DNA from: Hasllibacter sp. MH4015
Lineage (GTDB): Bacteria; Pseudomonadota; Alphaproteobacteria; Rhodobacterales; Rhodobacteraceae
Length of the DNA stretch: 64,000 nt
Direction: 5' to 3'
Assembly (NCBI RefSeq): GCF_020177575.1
Contig: NZ_JAHTBK010000001.1
Location: forward strand, 3,488,001 to 3,552,000
This document shows, piece after piece, positions 4,630 to 22,224 of the stretch. Every line of letters starts with the position of its first letter. The stretch's first letter is position 1. A model generated the notes under the pieces. The model was not told the DNA's origin, made no database searches, and saw only the letters and a list, made by a program, of their open reading frames with translations. Made by a program: the position numbers and the translations under genes.

Positions 4630-4776
4630 GGCTTGCCCCTCCGCCGTGCGTGTTCATTGCGCGGCACGTTAACCGCGATCGGGCGCAATTACTTGGGAAA
4701 GACGCCCGCTGATATCGCCAATCGAAGAAGATGACCGCGCCAATTCCGCCCCTTGCGAGGAAATCGTGCGCGACGC

Positions 4777-5124: not shown

Positions 5125-5177
5125 TGTCTGACCCTCTGGGAATAGTTCCTGTTCGCAAGGCTATAGGTGAACCTGGT

Positions 5178-5262
5178 TAATGTCAGGTCAATGACAGAAG
5201 TTCGCCGATCCGGCGGCACTTGCGGGTCCAATATGGACATCACCCTAAAAACCCTGACATTA
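5178..5262. promoter_or_regulatory. Palindromic TGTCA/TGACA operator-like sites in a divergent intergenic region
   Basis: TGTCA at 5181-5185 and TGACA at 5192-5196 form a dyad with a six-base spacer. A longer inverted pair, TAATGTCAGG at 5178-5187 and CCTGACATTA at 5253-5262, spans the same region. The sites lie between the 115-residue minus-strand gene and the plus-strand CGNR zinc-finger gene, so either gene, or autoregulation by the CGNR protein, could be the target. No binding protein is known. Confidence 0.45.
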
Positions 5263-5317
5263 CCGGTTGTTAGAAGTTGCGGCGCAACATCGTTGCATCT
5301 GAAGCTACGGGTAGAAG

Positions 5318-7043: not shown

Positions 7044-8069
7044 ATGACCGGCCCCGGTAACACACGCGACCACGGTGGCGGCCTCGACGCCGCCATGGCC
7101 CGCTACGGCGGGTCGCGCGACCAATGGCTCGACCTGTCCACCGGCATCAACCCGGTGCCATATCCGATCGGTGACATCCCGCCCGATGCGTGGCACCGCC
7201 TGCCCGATGAAGGTGCAATGGACGCGCTCCTGCAAGCGGCCCGCCGCTTCTGGAACGTCCCCGACAGCGCCCAGATCATCGCCGCCCCGGGCGCGTCTGC
7301 CCTGATCGCGCGAATGCCTCTGCTGACCGGTTCCACCACCGGCGGGGTCCATATCCCGCGGCCCACCTACAACGAACATGCCGCCGCGTTTGAGGCCACT
7401 GGCGATCATTGGCTCTCCGATGACCCGAACGATGCCTTCACCCACGTCTATGTGCACCCCAACAATCCCGATGGCCGGCTGTGGAGCGCCGATCATATGG
7501 GTGGCCGGACGCTCACGGTGATTGATGAAAGTTTCTGTGACACCGATCCCGGGGAAAGTCACATCGCGCTGGCCCCCGACAAGGGGATCGTGGTGCTGAA
7601 GAGTTTCGGCAAATTCTGGGGTCTCGCCGGTCTGCGCCTCGGGTTTCTCATTGGCACGCCGGAAACACTCGCTCCGGTGGATCGCGCCAAACGCTATGGC
7701 ATCTTGGGGGCCGAGCATGAGATGCGGCTGCAATCCATGGCCGATGCGCTCGGCCCCTGGCCCGTCTCCGGCCCGGCCCTCGAAATCGGGACCAGAGCGC
7801 TCGGTGACACCGCATGGGCCGAAGCCACCCGCGCCCGCCTCGCCCAAGATGCGGCGCGGCTGGACGATCTGATCTTGCGTACACGCGCCGAACTGGTCGG
7901 CGGTACAGGCCTGTTCCGCACCTATGCCGTACCGGACGCCGCCGCGCTCCACGACCGCCTCGCGCGCGCCCGTATCCTCACCCGCATCTTCCCCTATTCC
8001 GAACGCTGGATGCGCTTCGGCCTGCCGGGAACCGAGGCCCATTGGGCGCAACTCGAAGCCGCTCTATGA
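7044..8069 (+). CDS. cobD: Threonine-phosphate decarboxylase-type aminotransferase of cobalamin synthesis (CobC/CobD)
   Basis: A 341-residue fold-type I PLP enzyme. DLSTGINPVPYP near residue 30 and HPNNPDGR near 138 are typical of L-threonine-O-3-phosphate decarboxylases. The PLP lysine is Lys190 in LKSFGKFWGLAGLRLGF. The product, aminopropanol phosphate, supplies the linker of the cobalamin nucleotide loop. It is called cobC in the Pseudomonas denitrificans scheme and cobD in the Salmonella scheme. The following gene overlaps its stop by four bases (ATGA), so the two are translationally coupled. Confidence 0.9.
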   Translation: MTGPGNTRDHGGGLDAAMARYGGSRDQWLDLSTGINPVPYPIGDIPPDAWHRLPDEGAMDALLQAARRFWNVPDSAQIIAAPGASALIARMPLLTGSTTGGVHIPRPTYNEHAAAFEATGDHWLSDDPNDAFTHVYVHPNNPDGRLWSADHMGGRTLTVIDESFCDTDPGESHIALAPDKGIVVLKSFGKFWGLAGLRLGFLIGTPETLAPVDRAKRYGILGAEHEMRLQSMADALGPWPVSGPALEIGTRALGDTAWAEATRARLAQDAARLDDLILRTRAELVGGTGLFRTYAVPDAAALHDRLARARILTRIFPYSERWMRFGLPGTEAHWAQLEAAL

Positions 8070-8974
8070 GCGCCGCGATTCTTGCCGCCGCCATGGCCCT
8101 TGACGCCCTGCTCGGTGAACCCAAATGGCTCTGGTCCCGCGCGCCGCATCCCGCCGTGCTCATGGGCCGCCTCGTGGATTGGTTTGACCGGCGGTTCAAT
8201 CTCGGTGCGGCCCGAACCCTCAAAGGCATCGCCGCCACCGCCGCCCTCTCCGCCCTCGCCATAGCCCTCGGCCTACTGATCCAGGCCCTCCCCCTCGGCT
8301 GGCTCTGGTCGCTCCTGCTCACCGCCATCCTGCTGGCCCAACGCAGCCTCGCAGACCACGTTACCGCCGTCGCCGACGCCCTCCGCCGATCCCTGCCTGA
8401 AGGCCGCAAAGCCGTTTCCATGATCGTCGGCCGCGACCCCGACCAACTGGATGAACCCGCCATCGCCCGTGCCGCCATCGAATCCGCGGCCGAGAACCTG
8501 TCGGACGGCGTCGTCGCCCCCGTCTTCTGGTTCGCGGTCGCGGGCCTGCCCGGTATTCTCTTCTGCAAGATCATCAACACCGCGGATTCCATGATCGGCC
8601 ACCGAACGACGCGCCACGCCGAATTCGGATGGGCCGCCGCTCGCCTCGACGATGTCCTCAACTACATCCCCGCCCGCCTCACCGCGCTTCTGATCGCGAT
8701 CACCACCAAGCCAAGCGCCCTCAAGATCGCCGCCCGGGACGGCCCCAAACACCGCTCCATCAATGCCGGCTGGCCCGAGGCTGCCATGGCCGCCGCCCTC
8801 GGCCTGTCCCTCTCCGGCCCCCGCGCCTATGGCGGCGAGATGACCGACGACCCCCCCATGAACGCGACCGGCACGCGCGAGGCCACACCGGGCGACATCG
8901 CGGCTGCGGTCGGCGTGCTGTGGCGGGTATGGGTGGTTCTGCTCATCATCGTGGCCGCCTTCACGCTGGTCTAA
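8066..8974 (+). CDS. cbiB: Adenosylcobinamide-phosphate synthase (CbiB/CobD), membrane protein
   Basis: A 302-residue inner-membrane protein of the CbiB family, which joins aminopropanol (phosphate) to adenosylcobyric acid. Family marks are MALDALLGEPKWLW near the start, HPAVLMGRLVDW, AIESAAENLSDGVVAPVFWF, NTADSMIGHRTTRHAEFGWAAARLDDVLNYIPARLTA (in part) and RDGPKHRSINAGWPEAAMAAAL. Several hydrophobic helices are evident, the last at the C-terminus. It starts at the ATG inside the stop of the preceding decarboxylase gene. Its end lies only four bases from the convergent DUF2189 gene. Confidence 0.92.
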   Translation: MSAAILAAAMALDALLGEPKWLWSRAPHPAVLMGRLVDWFDRRFNLGAARTLKGIAATAALSALAIALGLLIQALPLGWLWSLLLTAILLAQRSLADHVTAVADALRRSLPEGRKAVSMIVGRDPDQLDEPAIARAAIESAAENLSDGVVAPVFWFAVAGLPGILFCKIINTADSMIGHRTTRHAEFGWAAARLDDVLNYIPARLTALLIAITTKPSALKIAARDGPKHRSINAGWPEAAMAAALGLSLSGPRAYGGEMTDDPPMNATGTREATPGDIAAAVGVLWRVWVVLLIIVAAFTLV

Positions 8975-8978
8975 AGTC

Positions 8979-9797
8979 TCACTCCTCCACCGGCGGCACG
9001 GCGCGCCGGTACAAGTGCCATGTCGTGTGCCCAAGGATCGGCAGCGTAAAGATCAGGCCCAGAAAGGCCGGCACAAGCGACAGCACCATCGTGACCGAGA
9101 TGATCGCCGCCCATCCCAGCATCACCACCGGGTTCTCCGCGACGACCCGCACCGATGTGACCATGGCGGTCACGAAGTTGGTCTCCCGATCCAACAGCAT
9201 CGGCATGGCCACGACCGTCACCGCAAACAAAACGGCGGATAAGCCCGCGCCAACCAATGTCCCCACGGCAAGGAACGTCCAGCCCTCCGGTGTGAAGAAG
9301 ACAACGTTCAGGAACCCGCCCATGTCCGAGAACGACGAATTCTGCAGGATCAATGCCAGCCAAAGCCGGATCTGGTAAACCCACACCCAGAATACGAACA
9401 GCGTCACGAAGGCCATCCACCCCATCTCGCGGTTCCTCTGGTCCGCCATGACCGTCAGGATATCCGACCAGCCGAAGGGCTCGCCCCGCTCCATCCGGCG
9501 CGACATCTCGTACAGGCCCGCTGCCGCGAACGGGGCCACCAAGGGAAAGCCGACAAGTGCGGGAAGGATCATCCACAACATCTCGAGCCAGACGAGGCTC
9601 CAGACGATGAAAATTCCGAAAAGCGCGTAGAACAGGCCGAAAAAGCCGCTCATCACCGGGCGCGCCAGAAAGTCGGAAAACCCGGCTTTCAGGGCCGCGC
9701 GAATGTCGTCTGCGGTGATCTTGTTGATCTCCGGCATTTCTTTTCGGCGCGGCGCAAGATCATTTTGGGGTGCGGAGCCTGATGAACCGGACGCCAT
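8979..9797 (-). CDS. DUF2189 integral membrane protein
   Basis: A 272-residue protein with a charged N-terminal tail and about six hydrophobic helices (for example GFFGLFYALFGIFIVWSLVW, FVTLFVFWVWVYQIRLWLAL, TLVGAGLSAVLFAVTVVAM, VMLGWAAIISVTMVLSLVPA). The pattern matches the DUF2189 family, whose function is unknown. The ATG at 9797 is chosen because a GGAAGG ribosome-binding site lies seven bases upstream. A TTG five codons earlier would put that site inside the gene. Convergent with cbiB. Confidence 0.82.
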   Translation of the reverse strand: MASGSSGSAPQNDLAPRRKEMPEINKITADDIRAALKAGFSDFLARPVMSGFFGLFYALFGIFIVWSLVWLEMLWMILPALVGFPLVAPFAAAGLYEMSRRMERGEPFGWSDILTVMADQRNREMGWMAFVTLFVFWVWVYQIRLWLALILQNSSFSDMGGFLNVVFFTPEGWTFLAVGTLVGAGLSAVLFAVTVVAMPMLLDRETNFVTAMVTSVRVVAENPVVMLGWAAIISVTMVLSLVPAFLGLIFTLPILGHTTWHLYRRAVPPVEE

Positions 9798-10152
9798 GTC
9801 ATATCCTTCCAAAGCATGGCACCGCCCCGGTCACGTGCCACACGGCCCGGCGGTGATCCTGACATCGCGCTTCCAAACCAGATGCTGCCTCAGATGCGCC
9901 CTCGGAACAAGGTTTGGCTGACGACCTTTGCATCTGAATGGCGCATCTCGCCCCGCGTGCTGTCCGCCGCTCGTGACAGGGTCTGACGTCCTCAGACCGC
10001 TGAATTCCTAGCCTGAAATCCAAGCATCGACGATCTGCCCACCGTATCGGATCAGCCAATTCCAAGCGCGCAGCATTCTTTTTCGACACCCCTTGCAACG
10101 GCACGAAACGCACCGATTTCCTGTGGGCAAACCTGCCCCATGGACCACCGCG
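9798..10152. other. Structured divergent intergenic region upstream of the antiporter gene
   Basis: About 355 bases without a convincing gene, holding several perfect inverted repeats. CACCGCC 9820-9826 pairs with GGCGGTG 9849-9855. CCAAACC 9873-9879 pairs with GGTTTGG 9911-9917. AGATGCGCC 9892-9900 pairs with GGCGCATCT 9940-9948. GGTCTGA 9980-9986 pairs with TCAGACC 9992-9998. The second and third pairs interleave, so they would be either alternatives or a pseudoknot. It could be a leader RNA of the plus-strand antiporter gene or a small RNA. No known riboswitch consensus was recognised. Confidence 0.45.
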
Positions 10153-11109
10153 ATGGCCGCTTCCCTCCTTGTCATTCTTGGCCTCGCCGGGCTGATCGTC
10201 GGCGGCGAATTGCTGGTGCGGGGCGCGGTCTCGGCGGCAAAATCCTTCGGCCTTTCACCCATGGTGATCGGCTTGACCCTCGTGGGTTTTGGCACATCCA
10301 GCCCCGAACTCGTCACGAGCCTTCAGGCGGTTTTGTCCGGGTCGCCCGGCATTGCCATCGGTAACGTGGTCGGAAGCAATATCGGGAACGTTTTGCTCAT
10401 TCTCGGTGTCGCAGCCTGTCTTGCGCCTGTCGCCGTCGATCCAAGGGCATTCGGGCGCGACGGCGGCATGATGATCGCCGCAACGCTCCTCTGCCTCGGT
10501 GCGGTGCTGATCGGCGATATCAACCGCATCACCGGCGCGGGCTTCGTAGCCGTTCTGCTCGCCTATCTCAGCTACACGATCTGGTCCGAACGGCGCGCGG
10601 GCGGAACCGCCGCGGCGGAGGTCTATGTGGGCGAAGCGGAAATCGTGCCGGGCACCGATTATTCCCTTGGCCTGGCCATCCTCATCGCCGTCACAGGTCT
10701 CATCATCACGATTTTCGGGGCCCGGTTCCTCGTCTCCGGCGCGGTCTCCATCGCCGAGGCGGCGGGCTTGTCGGAAACCGTGATCGGTTTGACCATCGTG
10801 GCGATCGGCACCTCGATGCCCGAGCTTGTGACGTCGATCATCGCGGTGCGGAAAGGGCAGGGCGATGTGGCGCTTGGCAACGTCATCGGCAGCAACATTT
10901 TCAACATCCTCGGCATTCTGGGCATCACCGCCCTCGTTCAGCCCTTGGCGGTCCCGGCAGAGATCCTGCGCCTCGACATCTGGGTCATGTGCGCCGCCGC
11001 CGTTCTGCTGGTGCTCTTCGCTAGAACCGGCTGGCGCGTCAGCCGCCGCGAAGGTGCGATCCTTCTGCTGGCCTATGCAGTCTACCTCGGCGTTCTCCTC
11101 ACCCGGTGA
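10153..11109 (+). CDS. Calcium/sodium antiporter of the CaCA family (YrbG-like)
   Basis: A 318-residue inner-membrane exchanger with the two internally duplicated alpha repeats of the Ca2+:cation antiporter superfamily. The first carries [16 protein letters not shown] and [16 protein letters not shown]; the second carries [16 protein letters not shown] and [16 protein letters not shown]. The paired PELVTS glutamates bind the cation. About ten hydrophobic helices are evident. The start is placed at the ATG at 10153 ([14 protein letters not shown]), just before the first helix; a longer frame would add a polar, poorly hydrophobic N-terminus. The actual ion is not certain. Confidence 0.88.
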
Positions 11110-11209
11110 TTTCGGGATCATCCGCCGGGGGTGCCAACCCACCCCCTTGCCTCACATTCCCCACCCTGTATCTTCCGGCGCAAACGCTTCTCCAACAGGG
11201 TCTTTTCAC

Positions 11210-12388
11210 ATGCGCCGTTTCCTCGCTCCGCTGCTCCTTTCCCTCACCCTTGGGACCACCGCCAATGCCCAGCAATGCGGCGGGGATTTCGGGCAATTCG
11301 TTCAAGGCCTCCGCGCGGAAGCGGCTGAGCGCGGCCATTCGCAGGAGAATATCGACGCCTTCTTCCGCCATGCCTCCTACTACCAGCGCGCGCTCGATGC
11401 GGACCGGCGGCAGGGCATCTTCACTGTCCCATTCACCGATTTCGCCCGCCGCCTCATCAGCCAGGGCCGCATGGACAATGGCCGCCGCAATGCCGACCGC
11501 TACGCCTCCGTCTTCAACGAGATCGAGCGTCGCTTCGGCGTCTCCCGCGGTATCCTGCTCTCCTTCTGGGCGTTCGAGACCGATTACGGCGCGTTCCAGG
11601 GCGATTACAACACGCTCGACAGCCTTGTGACGCTCGCCCACGATTGCCGCCGGCCTGAGCTTTTCCGCCCCGAGGTCTTCGGCGCGCTGGAACTCTTCGA
11701 GAACGGTGATTTTGACCCCGTGAACACCCAGGGCGCATGGGCCGGGGAAATCGGCATGGTCCAGATGCTCCCCGAAGACATCGTGAATTTCGGCATCGAC
11801 GGCGATGGCGACGGCCATGTCTACCTGCAAACCTCCGCCCCCGACGCGCTCATGTCCGGCGCCAATATCCTGTCGTCTCTCGGCTGGCGGCCCAATGAGC
11901 CCTGGCTCGTCGAAGTCACGCTCCCCGATAATCTCGACTGGTACCAGACCGGCGTCCACACCACCCGCTCCGTCGCCGAGTGGGAGGCTGACGGCGTCCG
12001 CGCCCGCGCCGGTGGCAACCTGCCCATGCGCAACGCCCAGGCCTCCATCGTCATCCCCCAGGGCCGCAACGGCCCCGCCTTCATCGCCTACCCGAACTTC
12101 TCCGTGCTGTTTGAGTGGAACCAGTCCTTCACCTACGTTCTGACCGCCGCCTATTTCGCCACCCGGCTTGAGGGCGCGCCCGTCTTCGACGCCGGCAACC
12201 CCGAGCCCGGCCTCGACGGCAACCAGATGCGCCGCCTGCAAGAGATCCTCTCCGCCCGCGGCTATGACGTGGGCCGCATCGACGGCATCCTCGGCGCCGG
12301 CACCCGCGCCGCCGTGCGGGAGGAGCAACGCCGCCTCGGCCTGCCCGCCGACGCCTGGCCCACCCGCGCGCTCCTGAACGCGCTCTAG
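11210..12388 (+). CDS. Lytic murein transglycosylase, MltB family
   Basis: A 392-residue periplasmic protein beginning with a Sec signal peptide (MRRFLAPLLLSLTLGTTANA). The transglycosylase domain has the catalytic glutamate Glu123 in LSFWAFETDYGAF, and GEIGMVQMLPEDIVNFGIDG and TLPDNLDW downstream, all typical of MltB (family GH103). The last 60 residues form a peptidoglycan-binding domain (MRRLQEILSARGYDVGRIDGI). It cleaves glycan strands to 1,6-anhydromuramic ends. No lipobox is present, so it is soluble rather than lipid-anchored. The ATG at 11210 is chosen because it begins the signal peptide. Confidence 0.88.
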   Translation: MRRFLAPLLLSLTLGTTANAQQCGGDFGQFVQGLRAEAAERGHSQENIDAFFRHASYYQRALDADRRQGIFTVPFTDFARRLISQGRMDNGRRNADRYASVFNEIERRFGVSRGILLSFWAFETDYGAFQGDYNTLDSLVTLAHDCRRPELFRPEVFGALELFENGDFDPVNTQGAWAGEIGMVQMLPEDIVNFGIDGDGDGHVYLQTSAPDALMSGANILSSLGWRPNEPWLVEVTLPDNLDWYQTGVHTTRSVAEWEADGVRARAGGNLPMRNAQASIVIPQGRNGPAFIAYPNFSVLFEWNQSFTYVLTAAYFATRLEGAPVFDAGNPEPGLDGNQMRRLQEILSARGYDVGRIDGILGAGTRAAVREEQRRLGLPADAWPTRALLNAL

Positions 12389-12414
12389 GTTAACCGAAAC
12401 CTAACCCAACCGGT

Positions 12415-12448
12415 CGATCCTGCTTGCCCTCCAAGGCTTGCAGGATCG
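12415..12448 (+). promoter_or_regulatory. Hairpin immediately upstream of the ParB-like gene
   Basis: CGATCCTGC at 12415-12423 and GCAGGATCG at 12440-12448 form a perfect nine-base inverted repeat. An inner GCC/GGC pair lies in the 16-base loop, and the ATG of the ParB-like gene starts six bases later. No U-run follows, so it is not a classic terminator. As RNA it would occupy the ribosome-binding region of the downstream gene. As DNA it could be a binding site. Confidence 0.45.
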
Positions 12449-12454
12449 CCAAAC

Positions 12455-13288
12455 ATGCCCGACATCCATCACATCCCCCTCACCGACATCGACGAACACG
12501 CGCTGCCTCGCGACCGCGACGCCCTCGACGCGACCTCCCTCTCCGACCTCACCCTCTCCATCGCCGCCCACGGCCTCCGCATGCCGATTGAGGTCTTTCC
12601 CGCCACCGGCCCCAAACCCTACGGCCTCATCTCCGGCTTCCGCCGCCTCAAAGCCCACCGCGAACTGACCCTCGACACCATCCCCGCCTTCATCCGCCAA
12701 CCCGCCGACATTCCCTCAGCCCTCGCCGCCATGATTGAGGAGAATGAGATCCGCGCCGACATCACCCCGTGGGAGCGCGCCAAAATCGTCCTCACCGCCA
12801 TCGACCACGGCCATTTCGACACCATCGACCAGGCCCTGCCCCGCCTCTACCCCACCTACGACCGCAACCGCATCTCCCGCCTCCGCGCCATCGCAGAAGT
12901 CGTACAACACTTCGGTGACCACGCCCTCACCGACCCACGCAGCCTCTCCCAACAAAAACTCACCCGCATCGCCACCGCTTTGCGCGCGGGGGTGGGAGAC
13001 ACCATGCTAGTCGCCCTGCAAGAGTGCTCCGACAAATCCCCGGCAACCCAATGGAGCCTGCTGCAAGCCATCATCGAAGACGCCGAGGCCGAGGCCAAAG
13101 CCCCCAAACTCCACTACAAACCCGGCCGGCCCCGTTATCACCGCCGCGTGCAAGACGACCTCACCGTCCGCCGAGAGCGCACGAAAGACGGCTGGACACT
13201 CCGGTTTACGGGGAGAACAGCGAAAGGCCCGCTGATGGAGGACATCATGGATTATGTGGAGGATATGTTTGGACGGCGGCAGCGGTAG
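12455..13288 (+). CDS. ParB N-terminal-domain protein (solitary, non-canonical)
   Basis: A 277-residue protein with a ParB/sulfiredoxin-type N-terminal domain (SLSDLTLSIAAHGLRMPIEV, then YGLISGFRRLKAHREL, equivalent to the ParB GERRxRA box). A helix-turn-helix region follows (DITPWERAKIVLTAID and YDRNRISRLRAIAEVV). The C-terminus is basic (RPRYHRRV) and does not match the dimerisation domain of chromosomal ParB. There is no parA next to it. It may be a plasmid-RepB-derived or regulatory ParB relative. It is flanked by a hairpin at its start and tandem hairpins at its end. Its function is open. Confidence 0.75.
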   Translation: MPDIHHIPLTDIDEHALPRDRDALDATSLSDLTLSIAAHGLRMPIEVFPATGPKPYGLISGFRRLKAHRELTLDTIPAFIRQPADIPSALAAMIEENEIRADITPWERAKIVLTAIDHGHFDTIDQALPRLYPTYDRNRISRLRAIAEVVQHFGDHALTDPRSLSQQKLTRIATALRAGVGDTMLVALQECSDKSPATQWSLLQAIIEDAEAEAKAPKLHYKPGRPRYHRRVQDDLTVRRERTKDGWTLRFTGRTAKGPLMEDIMDYVEDMFGRRQR

Positions 13289-13289
13289 A

Positions 13290-13338
13290 CCGGGCCTTGG
13301 CCCGGCTGCACAACCCGTAGGGCGGGACTTGTCCCGCC
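13290..13338 (+). terminator. Two tandem GC-rich hairpins after the ParB-like gene
   Basis: CCGGGCC 13290-13296, loop TT, GGCCCGG 13299-13305 is followed by GGCGGGAC 13321-13328, loop TT, GTCCCGCC 13331-13338. The first begins two bases after the stop codon. No U-tract follows, so they may act as a processing/stability element or REP-like repeat rather than a simple Rho-independent terminator. They mark the left border of the reverse-transcriptase island. Confidence 0.5.
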
Positions 13339-13581
13339 GCTCCGTCACCCGGAACTCCCAACCCACATTCAACGCACCCGGGCAGAATCAAGCGCGCAAG
13401 CGCGCTGCCCATCGCCGGGCCGCCCCCCGGCACGGCGATTTGTCTGATCTTGGCTCGCCGATCGTTCTGTGGGACGTGCTTGGCCACCATAAAGCGCGTT
13501 AGAACGACGGCTGGATCGCCGCACCGCGACCCGTCGAATAGCGCAAAATTTTGAGCCGGGTGATAATAAGAAACCTGTGGA

Positions 13582-15135
13582 CTATCCCAATGGCTTGGTT
13601 TCTTGGACAGTAGCGCACCAATTGATGAAATCATTGGACATAGGAAACTGAAGTCTGCTCTTGATGCTTCTAAGCCAATGAGAATACTCGTCTTTTGGCA
13701 AACAGCTCGCTCCAAAAATGAAGCTAGGCTGTGCCCATGAATGGATTTCGTTTACTTTTGTTTTTCGAGATCTAAAATAGTTGAGATCGTTAGCGCGCCA
13801 TCGGAGAAGATGGATCTGCCTTTGGTCGATCGTGCCTGTGAGGGCGTCAAGTTTACGGATTTGTGACGAGTTGAAAGATATACGCTCGCGCACACCTAAT
13901 TCGAGAAACCAAGAGCGAGCAAATTCAAGTGGCTGCATCCGCGATGAGAGTAACAGCTCCGTTACTTCGTCTCCCATGTTCTCAAATCCGCTGACATCAG
14001 AGGTAACAAACTCCTCAATGAGCAAGCAAACGTCCTTTGCAAATGGTACCAGCTGAGACAAATTTGACCGAATGTACGCAGCTACGTCGGAGTTCTTAAC
14101 CAGCCGCATTGCATGCAATACTATCCGAATTTGGCCCATGTCCCAGAATGGCTCTTTTAGAAGGTCTTCTAATTCTTGCCTTAGGTCCTTGAGCATGAGC
14201 GCTTCTAGCGCATCTTCATCGATCTCCTCTTGGCCATATGCAGCCCAAAAGAGTTTCTCGGTTGCGAACTCCTCTTTTGCGTCGTCGTCCTCGCCACCCG
14301 ACAAACCACTCGACTCCACGAATTCTTGCCAAGCCATAATTTTTGTTTTCTGAACATTGAGGCTAAGGCCCTCATTTTCAGAAAGGTGTTTCGCAAGGTA
14401 GCCTAGAGCTGCGTAGGGGTCCTGATCCTGCCTGATGAATATTATCATATCATCGACGTATCGCGTATGATCGTAGTCCTCAGATATTAATGCCATGTCG
14501 GTGTCATGTAATGCTGCTTCCGCCAGAAGACGTGATGCATTGGTTCCGACTGGAAGCCCAAATGATTGGCGCCCTCTCCAATCCGAAATGAAGGCCTCCA
14601 GCTTCTTGACGATCTTTGATTCTCCAGAAAGGCTTTCAAGGATATTCTCCAACCTATGCCTATAGATGCGAGAATAGAAATCAGATATATCAGTTCGAAT
14701 GACGTACCTGTATTCGCCGAAAAGAACTTTTGCTTGAATTGTGTTCAGCCAATGTCGATAAGAATGGTCTTCTTCAAAAAAATTTGGATCAAGTCCCTTT
14801 TTCTTTCGATACGAAAAGGCACGATGAAGTTCGATAGGGTCGCGCTGGGATTCGACTAAATCGAAGATTTTGAGGACAAGCGCTGTATAGATAATGGTGT
14901 CGATTGGAAACGGCTGATGAGCGTTTCGAAATCCAAAGCGAGACTTTGGAACTAAGGCTTCCACCAAACTCATGGGGTGGTATTGACCTAGGTCAATATT
15001 GCTTAACTTGCTAACTAAGACGTCCCTACTATCCTTCAGAAAACTAAGTTCAAACGGGTAAGGGAAGATATCTGTATCGCCAAATTGAAGAATATGGTCG
15101 AGCGCACAGGAATAGTAGCTTTCCTCAAGTCTCAT
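13582..15135 (-). CDS. Stand-alone reverse transcriptase, unknown-group/defence-type
   Basis: A 517-residue RNA-directed DNA polymerase. RT motif A is RTDISDFY (Asp149), motif B is FGLPVGTNASRLLAEA (193-206), motif C is YVDD (226-229) and LNVQKTKIM (259-267) fits motif D. About 145 residues precede motif A. About 245 mostly helical residues follow the RT core, rich in acidic and Leu residues, in the manner of Abi/unknown-group RTs. No maturase, endonuclease, integrase or protease domain is seen. The gene is much more AT-rich than its surroundings (21 of 60 bases G+C in 14641-14700, against 42 of 60 in 15361-15420), which points to recent acquisition. An anti-phage role is likely by analogy with DRT/Abi systems. 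The exact group is undetermined. Confidence 0.85.
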   Translation of the reverse strand: MRLEESYYSCALDHILQFGDTDIFPYPFELSFLKDSRDVLVSKLSNIDLGQYHPMSLVEALVPKSRFGFRNAHQPFPIDTIIYTALVLKIFDLVESQRDPIELHRAFSYRKKKGLDPNFFEEDHSYRHWLNTIQAKVLFGEYRYVIRTDISDFYSRIYRHRLENILESLSGESKIVKKLEAFISDWRGRQSFGLPVGTNASRLLAEAALHDTDMALISEDYDHTRYVDDMIIFIRQDQDPYAALGYLAKHLSENEGLSLNVQKTKIMAWQEFVESSGLSGGEDDDAKEEFATEKLFWAAYGQEEIDEDALEALMLKDLRQELEDLLKEPFWDMGQIRIVLHAMRLVKNSDVAAYIRSNLSQLVPFAKDVCLLIEEFVTSDVSGFENMGDEVTELLLSSRMQPLEFARSWFLELGVRERISFNSSQIRKLDALTGTIDQRQIHLLRWRANDLNYFRSRKTKVNEIHSWAQPSFIFGASCLPKDEYSHWLRSIKSRLQFPMSNDFINWCATVQETKPLG

Positions 15136-15310
15136 GAAGAGGCCTTTTTATATGGGTCGTGTATGCCCTAGATTACCGCGAATTCTGCTTGTTGCGCGAT
15201 GTAAGTCCACCGTGAACCCAAATGAGGGTATTCCAGCCAAACGTCTCAAACCCCCTAACAAATCCTTAACGCCAAACCCAAAACCCAACAATACCAATCA
15301 CTTAACCCCT

Positions 15311-15328
15311 CTGCTCAACCTTGAGCAG
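15311..15328 (-). terminator. Hairpin just after smc
   Basis: CTGCTCAA at 15311-15318 and TTGAGCAG at 15321-15328 form a perfect eight-base inverted repeat with a two-base centre, starting six bases beyond the smc stop codon. No clear U-run follows on the minus strand, so termination would be weak. It lies at the junction of core DNA with the AT-rich reverse-transcriptase island. Confidence 0.45.
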
Positions 15329-15333
15329 CCCCC

Positions 15334-18300
15334 TCACGCCACCAGGGCCTCGGCCTTTTTCAGGTCCACCGACACCAGCTGGCTCACCCCCTGCTCGCCC
15401 ATCGTCACGCCGAACAGGCGGTCCATGCGGGCCATCGTGACCGCGTGGTGGGTGATCGTCAGGAACCGTGTATCCGTCTGGCGGGTCATCTCGTCGAGCA
15501 TGTCGCAGAACCGGTTCACGTTCGCATCGTCCAGCGGCGCGTCGACCTCGTCCAGCACACAGATCGGCGCCGGGTTCGCAAGGAACACCCCGAAGATCAG
15601 CGCCAGCGCCGTCAGGGTCTGCTCGCCCCCGGAAAGCAGCGATAGCGTCGAGAGTTTCTTGCCCGGCGGCTGACACAGGATCTCCAGCCCCGCCTCCAGC
15701 GGATCGTCCGATTCCACCAGCACCAGCCGCGCTTCCCCGCCGCCAAAGAGGTGTGTGAACAGTTTCGAGAAGTTCGCGTTCACCTCGTCAAACGCTTTCA
15801 ACAACCGCTCCCGCCCTTCCTTGTTGAGCGAGGCAATCCCGGTGCGCAGCTTGGCGATGGCGCCTTCCAGGTCGGTCTTTTCGGAGGCGAGCGTGTCATG
15901 CTCCTCCCGCACCTCCCGCGCGTCTTCCTCGGCCCGCAGGTTGACGGCTCCCAAGGCGTCGCGCTGACGGCGCAGGCGCATGACGTCCGCCTCGATCCGA
16001 TCGACGGAGGGCATCGGGTCCGGCAGGTCGCCCAGGCTTTCGCGCAGGGCATCGGGGGTCAGTTCGGTGTCCTCGAAGATGCGCTCCGCGGCGGCCTGCA
16101 CAGCCTCCATCGCGGCATCGCGTCGGGCCTCGGCCGCGGCGCGGGCCTCCCGGGCCTCGGACGCTTTGCGCTCGGTGTCCCGCTCAGCCCCGCTTGCCGC
16201 GCGCAGGTTCGTCTCCCCCACGGACAGCGCATCGGCGGCGGCGGCCTTGCGCGCCTCGGCGGCCTGGATCTGCTCGGCCAGGGCTTCGCGGCGTCGGGCG
16301 ATTTCGTCGGGCTTCTGGCGCGCGTCGGCAAGGGCGATCTCGGCCTCCCCCTTGCGCTTCTCCAGCTCCGCAAGGCGCGCCGCGGCGTTGGTCAGGCGCG
16401 ATTGCCAGGTGGTGATTTCCGTCCCGATTTTCGCGATCCGGGAGACGCGATCCTCGCCGTCGCGTTTCACTTCGTCGAAAGTGGCGCGCTTGGCCAGCAT
16501 CGTCATGCGCGCGGCCTCGACCGTTGTCTTGACGTCGTCTAGCCGCCCGCGCACGGCGTCCAGATCGTCTAGCTCCGCCAAGGCATCCTGCGCGCGGACC
16601 AGCTCGGCGCGGGCGCTGTCGGCCTCCTCGGCATGGCGCGAGGCGGTCAGGCGAAGGGTTTCCAGTTTTCCGTCGAGGACGCTTTGATCGGCCTCGGCCC
16701 GGGCGGCGGCGCGGCTGGCCTGGCTCAATTGGGTCTCTGCGTCCCGGCGGGCGGTGCGGGCGGCCTTGTCGGCCTCCGTCAGGTCCGCAAGCCGGGTGGC
16801 GAGGGCGTCGTGGGCGGCCTTCGCCTCATCCGCAACGGCGCGGGCCTTGCTGCGTTCGCTTTCAAGCTCGGTCAGCCGGTTGGCCTGTTCGAGGCGTCGG
16901 GCGGCGGTGGACACGGCATCGGCGGCGGCCACGGCAAACCCATCCCACCGCCAGAGATCCCCGTCGCGGCTGACAAGGCGCTGACCGGGGCGCAGGTCGA
17001 TTTGAAGGCGGGGCCCGTCAGAGGCGTCGATGATCCCGATCTGGGAAAGGCGGCGACCCAGCATCGCGGGGGCCTCGGCCACGTCGGTGGCGGGTTGTGA
17101 GCCGGATGGAAGGGGGGCGCAGTCATCGTAGCCCGGCAAATCGGTCCAACCGGTCGCGCCGGGCGTTTCGGCGCGCGCGGCCTTCAGATCGTCGGAAAGC
17201 GCCGCGCCGATTGCGGCCTCAAAGCCCGGGGCGACGCTGATTTCGTCAAGGATCTGGGCGCCATCGCCCCGGTCCCGTTCCAGCACGCGGGCCAGTGCGG
17301 TGACTTCGGCGTCAAGCGTGCCGGCGCGGCCTTCGGCTTCGGACCGTGCGGCGCGGGCCTCCGCCTCGGTGGTCTGCAGTTCGGCGCGGGCCGCCTCGGT
17401 TTCCAAAAGCGTGTCTTCGGCGCGGGCGGCAAGGTCGGTGGCGCGTGCGAGGGCATCTTGCGCCTCCTCCGCCTCTCGTTTGAGATTGGTGAGGCGATCG
17501 GCGGCGTCGAAGGCGGCCGTTTCCGCGGCCTGCGCCTCCGCACTGTTGCGGGCGACGGCTTTCTCGGCCTCGCCCATGCGGCGTTCGATGGCCTGGTGAC
17601 GCGCGGCAAGGGCGGCGGATTGTTCCGTCAGATCAGATAGTTCCGCCTCCTGACCGGCAAGAACGCTGCGTGCGTCGGTGACGGCATTGCGCGCATCGTC
17701 AAGTCGTTCGTCCTGCCCGTCCTGGGCAGCCTGAAGCTCCGCCCGTTCGGTGCGCAGACGCTCCACCGTTTCGCCCGCATCGGCGTTCAGGGCGTCCTCC
17801 CGCTCCCGATCCCGGTCGATCTGGGCAATGCGGTTGGTGAGGGTGTCGATGGAGGCGGCGGCGCGGTCCGCCTCTGCCTGGAGAGAGTCGCGTTCGACCA
17901 AAAAACGTTGGAGAATTGCGGCGGAAACGGCGTCTTCCTCGCGCAGGGGCGGCAGGGCGTCTTCAGCGGCTTCGCGGGCCTTCACGGCCTCCCGCGCGGC
18001 GGCTTCGGCCTGTGCCGCGGCGGTCAGTCCGTTGCGCAGCGCCTCTTCCGCGCGAAGGCGGGCGGCATCGGCGTCGCGCCAGCGCAGGAACAGGAACAGG
18101 CCCTCGGCAAGGCGAAGCTCGGACCCGATCTCCCGATAGCGGGCGGCTTGTTTTGCCTGTCTTGCAAGGGCGTTGAGCTGGCTGGCGAGTTGTTCGAGGA
18201 CGTCGTCGATCCGCGCCAGATTGGCCTCCGCCCCCTTTAATTTCAGCTCCGCCTCGTGCCGGCGCTGGTAGAGGCCGGAGATTCCGGCGGCTTCCTCCAG

Positions 18301-18789
18301 TACGCGGCGGCGGGCTTTGGGGCGCGCGTTGATGAGCTCCGAAATCTGGCCCTGACGCACCAGGGCGGGGCTGTGCGCACCGGTGGAGGCGTCGGCAAAC
18401 AGCATGGAGACATCGCGGGCGCGGACGTCTTTTCCGTTTAGTTTATAAGCACTTCCGGCGTCCCGCGTGATGCGGCGAACGATGTCGATCTGGTCTTCTT
18501 CGTTGAACCCGGCGGGGGCGAGACGGTCCTGATTGTCGATCTGCAAGGACACTTCGGCGAAGTTGCGGGCGGGCCGGGTGGCGGCACCGCCGAAAATCAC
18601 ATCCTCCATCCCTGCGCCGCGCATGGCGGTGGGACGATTTTCGCCCATCACCCAGCGTAACGCCTCAAGAAGATTGGATTTTCCGCAACCGTTGGGGCCG
18701 ACAACACCGGTCAGGCCATCGGCGATCACAAGGTCAGTGGGATCGACGAAGGACTTGAATCCATTGAGCCTGAGCTTGGTAAACCGCAC
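15334..18789 (-). CDS. smc: Chromosome segregation protein SMC
   Basis: A 1151-residue SMC ATPase. The N-terminal Walker A is GPNGCGKSN (31-39) after MRFTKLRLNGFKSF. Two long Ala/Glu/Arg-rich coiled coils flank a hinge near the middle (around DEISVAPGFEAAIGAALSDDL to GQRLVSRDGDLWRWDG). The C-terminal head has the ABC signature LSLLSGGEQTLTALAL and Walker B ICVLDEVDAPLDD. It forms the condensin that organises and segregates the chromosome with ScpA/ScpB. The GTG at 18789 is chosen because it precedes the conserved MRFTKLRL and gives the expected length; an earlier in-frame start at 18873 would add 28 non-conserved residues. Confidence 0.95.
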   Translation of the reverse strand: MRFTKLRLNGFKSFVDPTDLVIADGLTGVVGPNGCGKSNLLEALRWVMGENRPTAMRGAGMEDVIFGGAATRPARNFAEVSLQIDNQDRLAPAGFNEEDQIDIVRRITRDAGSAYKLNGKDVRARDVSMLFADASTGAHSPALVRQGQISELINARPKARRRVLEEAAGISGLYQRRHEAELKLKGAEANLARIDDVLEQLASQLNALARQAKQAARYREIGSELRLAEGLFLFLRWRDADAARLRAEEALRNGLTAAAQAEAAAREAVKAREAAEDALPPLREEDAVSAAILQRFLVERDSLQAEADRAAASIDTLTNRIAQIDRDREREDALNADAGETVERLRTERAELQAAQDGQDERLDDARNAVTDARSVLAGQEAELSDLTEQSAALAARHQAIERRMGEAEKAVARNSAEAQAAETAAFDAADRLTNLKREAEEAQDALARATDLAARAEDTLLETEAARAELQTTEAEARAARSEAEGRAGTLDAEVTALARVLERDRGDGAQILDEISVAPGFEAAIGAALSDDLKAARAETPGATGWTDLPGYDDCAPLPSGSQPATDVAEAPAMLGRRLSQIGIIDASDGPRLQIDLRPGQRLVSRDGDLWRWDGFAVAAADAVSTAARRLEQANRLTELESERSKARAVADEAKAAHDALATRLADLTEADKAARTARRDAETQLSQASRAAARAEADQSVLDGKLETLRLTASRHAEEADSARAELVRAQDALAELDDLDAVRGRLDDVKTTVEAARMTMLAKRATFDEVKRDGEDRVSRIAKIGTEITTWQSRLTNAAARLAELEKRKGEAEIALADARQKPDEIARRREALAEQIQAAEARKAAAADALSVGETNLRAASGAERDTERKASEAREARAAAEARRDAAMEAVQAAAERIFEDTELTPDALRESLGDLPDPMPSVDRIEADVMRLRRQRDALGAVNLRAEEDAREVREEHDTLASEKTDLEGAIAKLRTGIASLNKEGRERLLKAFDEVNANFSKLFTHLFGGGEARLVLVESDDPLEAGLEILCQPPGKKLSTLSLLSGGEQTLTALALIFGVFLANPAPICVLDEVDAPLDDANVNRFCDMLDEMTRQTDTRFLTITHHAVTMARMDRLFGVTMGEQGVSQLVSVDLKKAEALVA

Positions 18790-18969
18790 GTTGCCTGCCT
18801 TGTTCTGTCGCGATTCTGGTGTCGCAGGAGTTTCGGGACGGGATGGGGTCGAGTCAACATCGACCCGCTGCATATCGGTGCGATGGGCGGGTTATCCCCA
18901 AGATATGTGACGTTTCACGAAATCTATGTTAAGCCATTCCGCCGCCCACAAGGGTAGATCAATGCTATA

Positions 18970-19191
18970 TCAATCTTTCGGCTTCGACGACGGGACCGCT
19001 TCCAGAATATCGCCCGGCTGACAGTCGAGGGCAGCGCAGATGCGCGCCAGCGTCTCGAACCGAATCCCCTTCACCTTGCCGCTTTTCAGCAAGCTGAGAT
19101 TTTGTTCGGAAATGCCGATCTGGGCCGAAAGCTCCCGTCCCTTCATTTTGCGCAGGGCCATCATGACGTCGAGGCGGACGATGATGTCCAT
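18970..19191 (-). CDS. Small Cro/C1-type HTH regulator (YozG-like)
   Basis: A 73-residue XRE-family protein: MDIIVRLDVMMALRKMKGREL, then the HTH core LSAQIGISEQNLSLLKSGKVKGIRF and LARICAALDCQPGDILE. It is nearly all DNA-binding domain, like YozG-type proteins that are paired with DUF2975 membrane proteins. The start codon overlaps the DUF2975 stop by one base (TGATG), so the two are translated together. It probably controls its own operon or the neighbouring exported protein. Confidence 0.9.
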   Translation of the reverse strand: MDIIVRLDVMMALRKMKGRELSAQIGISEQNLSLLKSGKVKGIRFETLARICAALDCQPGDILEAVPSSKPKD

Positions 19192-19733
19192 CACACGAAC
19201 GCCCTGTTTTCGTCGGCGATCCGCACCGCCTCTCCCATGACCCAGCCGATTACGACGATCAGGCCACCGCCGAGGAAAAACCCGGCATTCCCGCCTGAGA
19301 GTTGTACCGCCAACGTCCGGTCCCCGGTCTCGTTCGCAAGGGTCAGCAGAAGTACGATCACGGTGTTCGAGAGCACGCCGAAGATGCCGATGGTCACAAG
19401 CGCCTGACCGCAGCGCAGGATGACCGCGGCGCAGCGGGTGCTCAGGATCTCTCCGCTTTTGTAGAGGCCGAACAGAACGCGCATCTGCCACAGGATGTAG
19501 AGCGTGATTGCGAAGCCGATCACCTGGATCGCGCGCACGGTAAGAACGATGGCGGGAGGGATCACGTCGGGCAGGGCGTAGTCGGCATAGCTGCGCCGCA
19601 ACGCAGCCTCCCCGGCATCGCCGATTGCGATCATGTAGATCAGGAGGGCGGGCATCACGATCAGCGAAAGGGTGCAGGCCCAATGGAGTATCCGCGCCAG
19701 CCGTTGCACACGGGAAATCTGAGAATCATTCAT
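19191..19733 (-). CDS. DUF2975 integral membrane protein
   Basis: A 180-residue protein with four hydrophobic segments: HWACTLSLIVMPALLIYMIA, IPPAIVLTVRAIQVIGFAIT, VTIGIFGVLSNTVIVLLLTL and FFLGGGLIVVIGWVMGEAV. This matches DUF2975, a family regularly encoded with a small YozG-like HTH regulator. Its function is unknown; a membrane sensor or antagonist of the partner is an inference. The ATG at 19733 (MNDSQISRVQRLARILHWA) is chosen; in-frame sequence upstream lacks protein-like character. Confidence 0.88.
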   Translation of the reverse strand: MNDSQISRVQRLARILHWACTLSLIVMPALLIYMIAIGDAGEAALRRSYADYALPDVIPPAIVLTVRAIQVIGFAITLYILWQMRVLFGLYKSGEILSTRCAAVILRCGQALVTIGIFGVLSNTVIVLLLTLANETGDRTLAVQLSGGNAGFFLGGGLIVVIGWVMGEAVRIADENRAFV

Positions 19734-19803
19734 TTTTGGACTCCAAACATTATCTTTTTCATGTTTTACGATAAATAATGGCGACATGAAAAGAGGAATC
19801 ACC

Positions 19804-20322
19804 ATGGAACAGCGAAAAACCTTTGCGGCCGTCACCCTTGTGACGGTGTTGTCCGTTCTGCCCGGCGCGGTCCGGGCGCAGGACCCCGATCCGGTCACGG
19901 CCGATCCCGACCAGATCGCCGCGCGGATCACTCTGCCGGAGGGGCTTGCGATGCAGGACGGCGGCGTCGTCATGACAATGGGTGCGATCAACGAGGTCAC
20001 GGGCGCGCAAACCCTTGAGGTCTATGCCCTGGTCCCATCGCGCACCGAGCCGCATATGGTGCTGAGCGGCCCGGATCGGGCACGGCTGGCGGCGCAGCAG
20101 GCGCTGATCGTTGGATGGATGGACGCAGGACACGAGGTCGACGGCAGCTTTGCCGTAACGCTTGCACCTTGTCGGACGGGGGTGGAGGTGCCGGGGCGCG
20201 CGCGGGCGTCCATGGCGTTGCGCGCCGATGCCGAAAGCGGGTTCCAGGTGGTTGTCGAGGACATGCGTGTGCGCCGCCTGATCGGGCAGCCGATCCGCGA
20301 TCTTCCGCCCTGCGAAGGATAG
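19804..20322 (+). CDS. Secreted protein of unknown function
   Basis: A 172-residue protein with a Sec signal peptide (MEQRKTFAAVTLVTVLSVLPGAVRAQ). The mature part holds two cysteines (LAPCRTG and PPCEG) that could form one disulfide. No family was recognised. The ATG at 19804 is preferred over one six codons earlier because AAGAGG sits at a good distance before it. It is divergent from the DUF2975/HTH pair, so the HTH protein may regulate it from the 70-base shared intergenic region. Confidence 0.65.
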   Translation: MEQRKTFAAVTLVTVLSVLPGAVRAQDPDPVTADPDQIAARITLPEGLAMQDGGVVMTMGAINEVTGAQTLEVYALVPSRTEPHMVLSGPDRARLAAQQALIVGWMDAGHEVDGSFAVTLAPCRTGVEVPGRARASMALRADAESGFQVVVEDMRVRRLIGQPIRDLPPCEG

Positions 20323-20472
20323 GGCCGGGATCGGATTTCGCGGCACGCGGGTTCGGGGAACCATATTGTTGCTGCAACACTTCGCCTATTCCCCGCCGTT
20401 ACAGTTGAGATGGTGGGGGGGCGATGCTATCTTGAGAATATCCCGGCGCCGGGGCTTGTCAGGCGCGTTGCG

Positions 20473-20901
20473 ATGGAGGACAGAGTCCTGACCGGACTTA
20501 ATCAAGTGGTGGCTGAGACCACCGCCGCACCGGGGGCCAAGGCCCCGACCCAGACCGCCTATACCAGCGAAGAGCTGCTGGAGGCCGTCATCCACTCTCT
20601 CGAAAGCGACAAGGCCGAAGAGCTTGTGCAGATTGACCTGCGCGGCAAATCCTCGATCGGGGATTACATGGTCATCGCATCGGGCCGCTCCACCCGTCAG
20701 GTGGCGGCGCTGTCCGAAAAGCTGGTCGAGCGGCTGAAGGCCGATTTCGGACTGGTCTCGAAGATCGAGGGCAAGGATGCGGGCGATTGGGTGTTGATCG
20801 ACACGGGCGATATCATCGTCCACGTGTTCCGGCCCGAGGTGCGGGAGTTCTACCAGCTCGAGAAGATGTGGCAGCCCCCGGCGGAAGCGGCGTCCAACTG
20901 A
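20473..20901 (+). CDS. rsfS: Ribosome silencing factor RsfS
   Basis: A 142-residue RsfS/Iojap protein. The conserved core runs from LLEAVIHSLESDKAEELVQIDL through GDYMVIASGRSTRQVAALSEKL to DAGDWVLIDTGDIIVHVFRPEVREFYQLEKMW (in part). It binds ribosomal protein uL14 and blocks subunit joining in starvation. The start is uncertain: an ATG at 20410 would add 21 residues, while the ATG at 20473 (MEDRVLTGLNQ) is closer to the conserved part. It is followed after 16 bases by rlmH, the usual partner. Confidence 0.92.
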   Translation: MEDRVLTGLNQVVAETTAAPGAKAPTQTAYTSEELLEAVIHSLESDKAEELVQIDLRGKSSIGDYMVIASGRSTRQVAALSEKLVERLKADFGLVSKIEGKDAGDWVLIDTGDIIVHVFRPEVREFYQLEKMWQPPAEAASN

Positions 20902-20917
20902 CGCCGGCCCGGTTCCG

Positions 20918-21385
20918 GTGAAGGTCCATCTTTGCGTTGTCGGCCGCCTGCGCGGTGGGCCGGAGAAGGCGCTGATTGACGATTATCTAGACCGTTTCGA
21001 CAAGACGGGCCGTGGCCTTGGGCTGTCCCTTGGGCAGGTGCTGGAGGTCGAGGACCGCAAGGGCGGCGGGATGGCGGCGGAGGCGGCCCTGTTGCGCAAG
21101 GCGTTGCCCGGGCCGGTGTTCTGGGTCCTGGACGAGCGTGGTCGCACCCAGACCTCCCCCGAATTTGCGCAAAGCCTTGGGCGGCAAAGGGATGCGGGGC
21201 AGGGGGATCTTGCGCTGGTGATCGGCGGCGCGGACGGGATCGACCCGGCGCTGCGCGCCGATGCGGCGATGACCCTGTCGTTCGGCAAGATGGTTTGGCC
21301 GCACATGCTGGCCCGCGTGATGCTGGCCGAACAGCTTTACCGTGCGGCGTCCATCCTGGCGGGAAGCCCTTATCACCGCGTGTGA
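20918..21385 (+). CDS. rlmH: 23S rRNA (pseudouridine-1915-N3)-methyltransferase RlmH
   Basis: A 155-residue SPOUT methyltransferase at the family length, starting with GTG. The knotted SAM-binding region is FWVLDERGRTQTSPEFAQSL, then LVIGGADGIDPALRADA, and the C-terminal FGKMVWPHMLARVMLAEQLYRA with the closing SPYHRV. It methylates pseudouridine 1915 in helix 69 of 23S rRNA using SAM. It forms an operon with rsfS and is convergent with the polysaccharide-export permease, with only 11 bases between the two genes. Confidence 0.95.
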   Translation: MKVHLCVVGRLRGGPEKALIDDYLDRFDKTGRGLGLSLGQVLEVEDRKGGGMAAEAALLRKALPGPVFWVLDERGRTQTSPEFAQSLGRQRDAGQGDLALVIGGADGIDPALRADAAMTLSFGKMVWPHMLARVMLAEQLYRAASILAGSPYHRV

Positions 21386-21396
21386 AGCCACCGCTT

Positions 21397-22224
21397 TCAG
21401 CGCATCAGAATGTCCTGACGGTAGCGGCGCAAAAGCAGCAGCCCGAAAAAGAGCGGCACCAGCCCCCAGATCAGCACCAGCGGGATGGAGATGAAATCCG
21501 GCGCATAGGTCGGAAACACGCCTTGCCGGAAAAGTGCCGTGAAGTGGATCCAAGGGGTCCAGTCGAGGATGGATTGGATCATCGGCGACAGATCCTCGTA
21601 CAGAAAGAAGATGCCTGACGCGATCAGAAGCGGGCGCGTGGCGATGTTCCACACCGATCCGTAGACAGGGAAAAGGCCGACCAGCGCGCAGTTGAACGTG
21701 CCGTGGGCAAGGCCCAGAAGGCCCGCCAGCGCCATCGAAAGGATCATGTACCGAAACTCCAACACCGCGGTGGCATCGGTGAATTCCAACACCCCGAACA
21801 ACACGATGCAGCTGACCGCGATGGAGGTGAGCGCGTTCAGGGCGAAGCGCGCAAGGATCGCGTCTAGCCAGTTGACGGCGGGATATTGCAGCAGGGGTTT
21901 GGAGAAGTTCAGCGCGTTCATCACCGTGGTCAGCGTGAGCGAATAGAGCAGGTAGGGCAGGTAACCGGTCGTGTAGAACAGCAAGAAGGAATTGCCGAGC
22001 GACGGGCTGCGCAAGAGCGCCGCGAAGACGAAGGACATCAGGAGGAGCGCGCCGAGGGGTTCCACGATTGCCCAGATATAGCCGCCGGGCGATTTGCCGT
22101 AGCGCGTCGACATCTCTCGCAAGATGAGGGCCACGATGGCGCGGCCACTGGCGAAGCTGCGCGCGCGGGGGCGGGCGCGGCCCGCAGGCGGATGGGGGAC
22201 GTTCGCGGCGACCGGATGATCCAT
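21397..22224 (-). CDS. Polysaccharide ABC exporter permease, KpsM/ABC-2 type
   Basis: A 275-residue inner-membrane protein with a basic N-terminus, then about six hydrophobic helices. Motifs include ALILREMSTRYGKSPGGYIWAIVEPLGALLLM (in part), typical of KpsM/CtrC/BexB permeases, and the late SPMIQSILDWTPWIHFTALFRQG. It would form the channel for capsule or surface polysaccharide export with the KpsT-like ATPase encoded 1.3 kb away. The ATG at 22224 is chosen over a GTG one codon earlier because of an AAGGA upstream. It is divergent from the KpsE-like gene across 76 bases. Confidence 0.88.
   Translation of the reverse strand: MDHPVAANVPHPPAGRARPRARSFASGRAIVALILREMSTRYGKSPGGYIWAIVEPLGALLLMSFVFAALLRSPSLGNSFLLFYTTGYLPYLLYSLTLTTVMNALNFSKPLLQYPAVNWLDAILARFALNALTSIAVSCIVLFGVLEFTDATAVLEFRYMILSMALAGLLGLAHGTFNCALVGLFPVYGSVWNIATRPLLIASGIFFLYEDLSPMIQSILDWTPWIHFTALFRQGVFPTYAPDFISIPLVLIWGLVPLFFGLLLLRRYRQDILMR

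Follow-up and report, generated by a model that had tools for sequence, protein, structure and literature searches.

The locus described here lies in a 64,000-nucleotide stretch of DNA from Hasllibacter sp. MH4015, analysed as a whole and called the window below, and consists of a solitary reverse transcriptase (RT) gene between an orphan parB-like gene and smc (Table 1). The RT ORF is intact, and its motifs RTDISDFY, GLPVG and YVDD were all confirmed, as were the local G+C counts of 21/60 and 42/60 given in the initial annotation, which are exact. Its placement of the gene between smc and a ParB-like gene agrees with the ORFs and the Pfam ParB_N match, smc being named by its own sequence and matches without a family scan. 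The DNA around the cassette has 64% G+C against 45.5% inside, and the 700-bp steps below 52% G+C in the window (31 of 1266) all fall at the RT, so that the AT-rich island claimed earlier is real and the only such stretch. Its proposed extent (13540-15300) has to be trimmed slightly, comparison with congeners placing the foreign stretch at about 13538-15254. Inspection of the ORFs in this stretch, of which the RT ORF alone was scanned, revealed no recombinase ORF, in line with the reported lack of integrase and transposase. Neither a tRNA at 8000-22000 of the window nor direct repeats flanking the cassette (12400-15700) were found.

Table 1. Features of the RT locus in window coordinates
Feature	Position	Strand	Remarks
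Orphan ParB-like protein	12455-13288	+	277 aa; Pfam ParB_N; constant slot anchor
Dispersed GC-rich repeat	13370-13537	+	Between parB-like gene and cargo; in 5 of 9 congeners compared
Exchangeable cassette	13538-15254		AT-rich, 45.5% G+C; common to 0 of 10 slot-bearing congeners
Drt8-type (UG/Abi) RT	13582-15135	-	517-aa ORF; PADLOC Drt8, Pfam RVT_1; present slot cargo
Box A	15255-15270	+	CTAACAAATCCTTAAC; at far slot end in smc, clpB, hisS and dinB contexts
Palindrome	15311-15328	.	CTGCTCAACCTTGAGCAG; 56 bp after box A start; arms vary between loci
smc	15334-18873	-	Core gene bounding the slot in Roseicyclus

Family of the reverse transcriptase

The RT matches the PADLOC Drt8 model from end to end (484 bits; RT residues 3-508 of 517, model positions 2-490 of 493), while the next-best PADLOC family reaches 134 bits and the best Drt4 and Drt6 models 70.5 and 66.2 bits. 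Pfam RVT_1 was matched at 1.9e-12, the C-terminal 242 residues gave no Pfam match, and NCBIfam returned for the RT no Drt8 match, only cross-matches far under cut-off. A new RT type is ruled out by the end-to-end Drt8 match. Thus, of the earlier suggestion that the RT fits no named group and may be new or poorly described, only the last part survives, and that for the mechanism: DRT8 defends in a manner called unresolved in a table of PMC13213688 and in part of PMC13314766, and for this class the locus supplies a solitary member.

Two further candidates were rejected. A group II intron RT would be expected neither from the group_II_RT_mat score (57.5 bits against a cut-off of 300) nor from Rfam, which gave no intron; a retron or ncRNA-dependent DRT found no support in Rfam, where no family passed the threshold and two sub-threshold matches (E 0.26 and 0.27) both fell outside the cassette, or in the 118 nt upstream of the RT, which showed no structure excess (z +0.65). 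No direct repeat pair longer than 26 nt, as for a DGR-type TR/VR, was present in the region searched (12400-15700). The initial reading of a stand-alone defence-group (UG/Abi) RT that looks acquired, and is neither an intron nor a retron RT, stands. Across 12 Drt8-type RTs, D149, D228 and D229 are invariant. Judged by model matches, DRT8, for which UG7 is presumably another name, is sparse among the genomes scanned, with 10 of 292 genomes of the order at 1e-30 (at least one of the ten being UG20) and, at 1e-60, 6 of 385 genomes of the class and 3 of 398 of the phylum, own genome included each time.

DRT8 is described in part of PMC12596737 as having a PD-(D/E)XK domain. The RTasPDDEXK model matches directly 3' of Drt8 in L133 and L134 (219.6 and 180.1 bits), an ORF of about 240 aa lies directly behind Drt8 in at least four whole-genome loci (L006, L007, L133, L134), and, by eye, viral loci L233-L236 have a partner-like ORF behind the RT. 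By eye again, no such ORF lies directly behind the RT in L135, L136, L138, L139, L008, L010, L232, L237 and L238. For all its likeness to DRT8, the window locus differs in having no such partner: the ORF list holds none in the cassette, and RTasPDDEXK has 0 matches in the own genome. As far as these models tell, the RT is a solitary relative of DRT8 and not a two-part system.

A slot with changing cargo in Roseicyclus

Among 12 congeners examined (G003 and G008 among them), ten have a parB-like gene beside smc, each with a different AT-rich gene or gene pair, and G002 and G008 have neither the parB-like gene nor AT-rich cargo at smc. The smc genes are 77-87% identical between the window and the congeners. 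A match to the window cassette was found in 0 of the ten, nine being judged by sliding identity and G003 by blastn plus a tblastn search with the RT as query; the comparison of the smc-parB locus proposed in the initial annotation thus found the gene, with core-like composition, in none of these relatives. Homology with the congeners sets in again at 15245-15280, at box A (15255) or a short way from it. The congener cargoes include an OLD/AriA-like ATPase, retron II-A (two genes), HEC-07, Drt2, DUF6119 and AIPR/AbiU, and three are without a convincing family. G003 has the parB-like gene, another AT-rich cargo and the right-end element described below; its cargo ORF in the slot (L288) encodes 683 aa at 3392-5443 of the reverse strand and is AT-rich. 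Constant neighbours with non-homologous defence cargo between them are the mark of a compact defence hotspot, and this is the arrangement seen here. The ParB-like neighbour had been noticed before, but not its role as the constant partner of a slot that swaps its cargo.

The dispersed repeat between the parB-like gene and the cargo has 7 matches in the own genome and, judging from its distribution, is not needed for the slot. A mobile cassette marked by this repeat was considered and rejected, as the repeat occurs at many other sites, where AT-rich DNA is often lacking nearby, and several slots do not have it. Copies are found at L027, L033, L097, L102, L105 and L111, among others; several of those elsewhere border AT-rich DNA, and copies also adjoin the Drt8 RT of L230.

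Slot and cargo across Rhodobacterales

The alignment scan with the ParB-like protein was followed through the top 80 of 157 loci, for which records are named; these divide into 59 with at least 40% ParB-like identity and 21 more distant ParB loci. An AT-rich stretch lies within 500 bp of the parB-like gene in 48 of the 59, always on its 3' side, against 27 of 626 control anchors and 0 of the 21 more distant loci; seven of the 11 misses are true, with 3' sequence present, and four have no 3' sequence. Outside the 59, L129 (G193) has an AT-rich AAA ATPase gene 5' of parB-like, an exception to the 3' rule. Besides smc in Roseicyclus, the contexts of the parB-like gene include clpB, hisS-hisZ-hisG and the stomatin-like/dinB interval, besides some left unassigned (gene names by eye), and the ParB-like tree groups these contexts, with 12 changes against a shuffled mean of 42.9.

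The cargo is small. In 64 loci, a few of them cut by contig ends, the last cargo ORF ends 398-3381 bp past the parB-like gene (median 1818), and the number of cargo genes is one in 37, two in 18, three in eight and four in one; 51 cargo ORFs point one way and 50 the other. It is also highly diverse: 100 cargo ORFs in 63 loci form 96 families, though a few of the ORFs perhaps belong to the flanks, as a DprA and a transglycosylase domain each appear once. No common cargo was detected by blastp in 83 locus pairs with cargo on both sides and ParB-like proteins at least 80% identical, one pair of equal ORF length being rechecked. A PADLOC match at 1e-8 or better was obtained for 18 of 28 hand-chosen slots, a raw share with no random-gene baseline (one or two proteins scanned per slot, L129 left out), and ten gave none. 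Pfam matches among 75 cargo ORFs, partly the same ones, include AAA_15, RVT_1, DUF3800, C5 methylase, EcoRII-C and HerA, and further GmrSD, SocA, TIR, Schlafen and others, mostly once each (among 25 of 41 families). With that of the window included, RTs of six defence classes are found among the cargo, namely Drt2, Drt6, Drt8, Drt9, UG20 and retron II-A. Large cargo proteins with no PADLOC match at 1e-3 and no convincing Pfam match are found in L140/L050, L142/L052, L058, L117, L170 and L185, and are candidates for new defence genes.

The edges of the cassette were analysed in seven close pairs, picked by hand. Homology on the left ends at +5, -6, 0, -3, +15, -7 and 0 bp from the parB-like stop of the first partner, hence within 15 bp in all seven; for the second partner six of seven lie within 15 bp and one at -71. 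One pair, L177/L179, has an extra 161-bp piece in common inside the slot. On the right, homology with L177 starts within 7 bp of box A in 8 of 15 hisS loci; two others start far to the left, at the common inner piece, and five further to the right. To the resolution of these alignments, the edges of the cassette are sharp.

Compact hotspots of defence genes flanked by two conserved genes have precedents, as set out in parts of PMC9122126 (P2/P4) and PMC10250203 (cDHS), and it is quite possible, if somewhat short of an even chance, that the slot is an ordinary integration hotspot, in which insertions are tolerated in the gap next to some core genes and the ParB-like gene plays no part beyond lying alongside. 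However, the cargo tracks the parB-like gene over several core-gene contexts. The 3' flank of smc is AT-rich in 0 of 20 family genomes that have the parB-like gene elsewhere, and that of clpB in 4 of 5 with parB-like there against 0 of 22 without. In addition, all 48 positive loci have their cargo 3' of parB-like, and the right-end element goes along in about half of the loci. On this comparative evidence, the cargo goes with the parB-like gene rather than with the core gene. As described in part of PMC9122126, the anti-phage hotspots of P2 and P4 are likewise loci of about 1-5 kb between two conserved genes with a high turnover of defence genes, but they lie in phages and satellites, whereas the slot of the window is chromosomal, anchored by an orphan ParB and without relatives in viral contigs. 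The Pseudomonas hotspots cDHS1 and cDHS2 share with it a chromosomal position between core genes; they differ in having, according to part of PMC10250203, median lengths of 26 and 6 kb, flanking tRNA/tmRNA genes and varied mobile elements, while slots of the window type hold 1-4 ORFs and extend, to the end of the last one, no more than 3.4 kb beyond parB-like.

We favour the reading, to which we assign a probability of roughly 0.7, that the island represents a single cargo cassette occupying a fixed, ParB-anchored slot, with the solitary Drt8-type RT as its cargo. It builds on sequence comparison, which established the family of the RT, the absence of its partner, the different cargo in each relative with the slot, the tracking of the parB-like gene, the sharp edges and the element at the far end. 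The fixed parts would be the orphan parB-like gene plus, in about half of the loci, the right-end element; the one to four genes that they enclose, for the most part of defence type, would be replaced as a unit. The exchange may proceed by homologous recombination in the conserved flanks, possibly with gene transfer agents as carriers; the latter idea comes from GTA_TIM, matched in all 13 genus genomes, and from the small size of the cassette. The GTA_TIM match is partial in G000, G005 and G007, whose frames measure 835-845 aa; those of the remaining genus genomes reach 1450-1663 aa. No published description of the slot was found by title and abstract start, in a search whose coverage lay outside most subscription journals and preprints, and a ParB-anchored slot for one cassette is apparently undescribed. 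The RT, being of Drt8 type, is the known part of the locus, and the slot it occupies apparently the new one.

The right-end element

The element at the far end of the slot consists of a YTAACAA box followed 42-74 bp later (51-58 bp in 30 of 39) by a palindrome with arms of 6-14 bp, palindrome positions being read relative to slot ends. It is complete in 39 of 76 loci and escapes the pattern in 37, among them 8 of the 12 dinB-context loci; in 7 of the 76, less than 600 bp lies beyond the slot end. The box lies within 400 bp of the slot end, or just beyond it, in 44 of 76 loci, and the palindrome is present in 38 of these 44, compared with 72 of 909 background windows. Since the alignment rows were picked by YTAACAA, the invariance of its letters is built in, and the evidence lies in its rarity and position: it occurs 12 times in 1.14 Mb of control DNA (both strands), 5' of parB-like in 3 of 68 loci, and the whole pattern once in the window. 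Flanks without parB-like have no element (0 of 20 at smc, 0 of 22 at clpB), and 3 of 5 clpB flanks with parB-like carry it. The same pattern, with other flanking letters, appears in 4 of 21 more distant ParB loci and in 2 of 11 unrelated Drt8 loci. A copy at the left end was not found. Box A looks similar to CtrA sites, which have the form TTAA-N7-TTAA.

The palindrome arms differ between L140, L144 and the window despite ParB-like proteins 87-88% identical, which argues against simple sequence-specific binding by ParB. When the right-end elements were folded as an alignment, no pairs emerged, since the alignment does not keep the palindromes in register. When arm pairs were tabulated from the palindrome centre, with palindromes alone entered, the table displayed varied sequence, which is distinct from independent covariation.

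The element might be an attachment-type site. A possible, somewhat doubtful alternative is a mere transcription terminator that shields the neighbouring core gene. In the window, a C-rich run with hardly any G precedes the palindrome (27 C and 2 G of 66), rut sites being C-rich and G-poor; palindromes persist though their arms differ, and at least four T follow on the reverse strand in L119, L176, L181, L189 and L210. However, the T run is missing from 34 of the 39 palindromes, the box is rare elsewhere but frequent at slot ends, and the clpB loci L113, L117 and L193 carry a separate terminator-like hairpin beside the palindrome.

The ParB-like anchor

The model of the ParB-like protein (pLDDT 84.9) has Noc, ParB and KorB as nearest Foldseek matches, and the GxRR and EN..R boxes typical of CTP-binding ParBs are retained. 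Four pairs gave dN/dS of 0.18-0.30 (from NG86 values). In a motif search, ParA turned up within 3 kb at none of 78 slot loci, compared with 19 of the 21 more distant ParB loci; on this ground a ParABS partition system was rejected. The protein is like plasmid ParB, Noc and KorB in predicted fold, but has no such ParA nearby. Its plasmid matches number 319 records, all below 60% identity, with a maximum of 38.9% among the 25 listed, and in one plasmid relative the gene immediately upstream codes for an AAA ATPase; no relatives were found in viral contigs. The ParB-like protein probably derives from a plasmid partition ParB, and the data fit a former partition protein, retained for another task after the loss of its partner.

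That task may be to act at the slot, as a CTP-switched DNA clamp, on the expression or exchange of the cargo, a suggestion that we make tentatively. In the same tentative spirit, the slot may be seen as a platform for immune genes, in which a ParB clamp, domesticated, devoid of ParA and provided with an end site of its own, would hold one chromosomal slot, control the resident cassette and allow swaps without a dedicated recombinase. If this were true, each cargo of unknown type would be a candidate new defence gene. Whether a partition-type clamp can manage exchangeable immunity is a question that lends itself to testing. The slot can serve as a lure for immune genes that needs nothing but sequence, as one locates an orphan parB-like gene and reads its 3' side, and is a possible pointer to new immune systems.

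Predicted fold and activity of the reverse transcriptase

The AF2 model of the RT, built from 7 sequences and of middling quality (pLDDT 75.8), comprises an RT domain and an all-helical C-terminal half; the large helical C-terminal region described earlier corresponds to residues ~307-513, which are predicted to be entirely helical. Foldseek placed UG15/DRT4 first, followed by AbiP2, DRT6, AbiA and AbiK over most of the length, with group II RTs and DRT9 ranked lower. An RT plus helical domain, with no ncRNA found nearby, is a single-protein architecture like that of DRT4, DRT6 and AbiK. The RT resembles DRT4/UG15, DRT6, AbiK and AbiP2 in being a single gene with a helical C-terminal domain and in having them as nearest solved folds, but differs in sequence family, given the low scores of the Drt4 and Drt6 models.

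From the nearest folds, the little non-coding DNA and the lack of an ncRNA signal, we infer a single-protein DNA polymerase. By analogy, the RT would make DNA without a dedicated ncRNA, probably self-primed by protein as in DRT4 or AbiK, a scheme to which we give nearly even odds. Tyr300 is near-invariant across 12 RTs and, in another set of 7, fully invariant; in the model it sits in a poorly modelled linker, and it is a candidate primer at most. An anti-phage role of the RT is likely, and it would block phage through abortive infection.

As several DRT classes require an ncRNA, according to part of PMC13213688, the RT might need a template encoded nearby, in the style of DRT2, DRT9 or retrons. 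This is improbable: only 118 nt upstream and 44 nt downstream of the RT are non-coding in the cassette, the Rfam and folding searches given above argue against it, and the DNA around the ORF is unlike that of the RT in L010 (genome G254), a 73% identical relative, except for a copy of the dispersed repeat. Equally improbable is a decaying remnant of a two-component DRT8 that has lost its PD-(D/E)XK partner, which is indeed missing from the window locus and genome and present or seemingly present in the loci listed above (scanned in L133 and L134, by eye in the others), for the ORF is intact with every catalytic residue kept, partnerless RTs occur elsewhere too, and that of L010 lies in another genus and gene context, between aconitase-like and ybaB-like genes.

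Three of the viral contigs (L233, L235 and L236) have, by eye, the Drt8-type RT and partner-like ORF behind an integrase-like ORF, as in P4-like satellites. An Aminobacter plasmid (L231) carries a relative of the RT (37.8% identity). A second RT-family gene comes next after it, and upstream lie a DUF87 gene and, farther out, an AbiEii gene.
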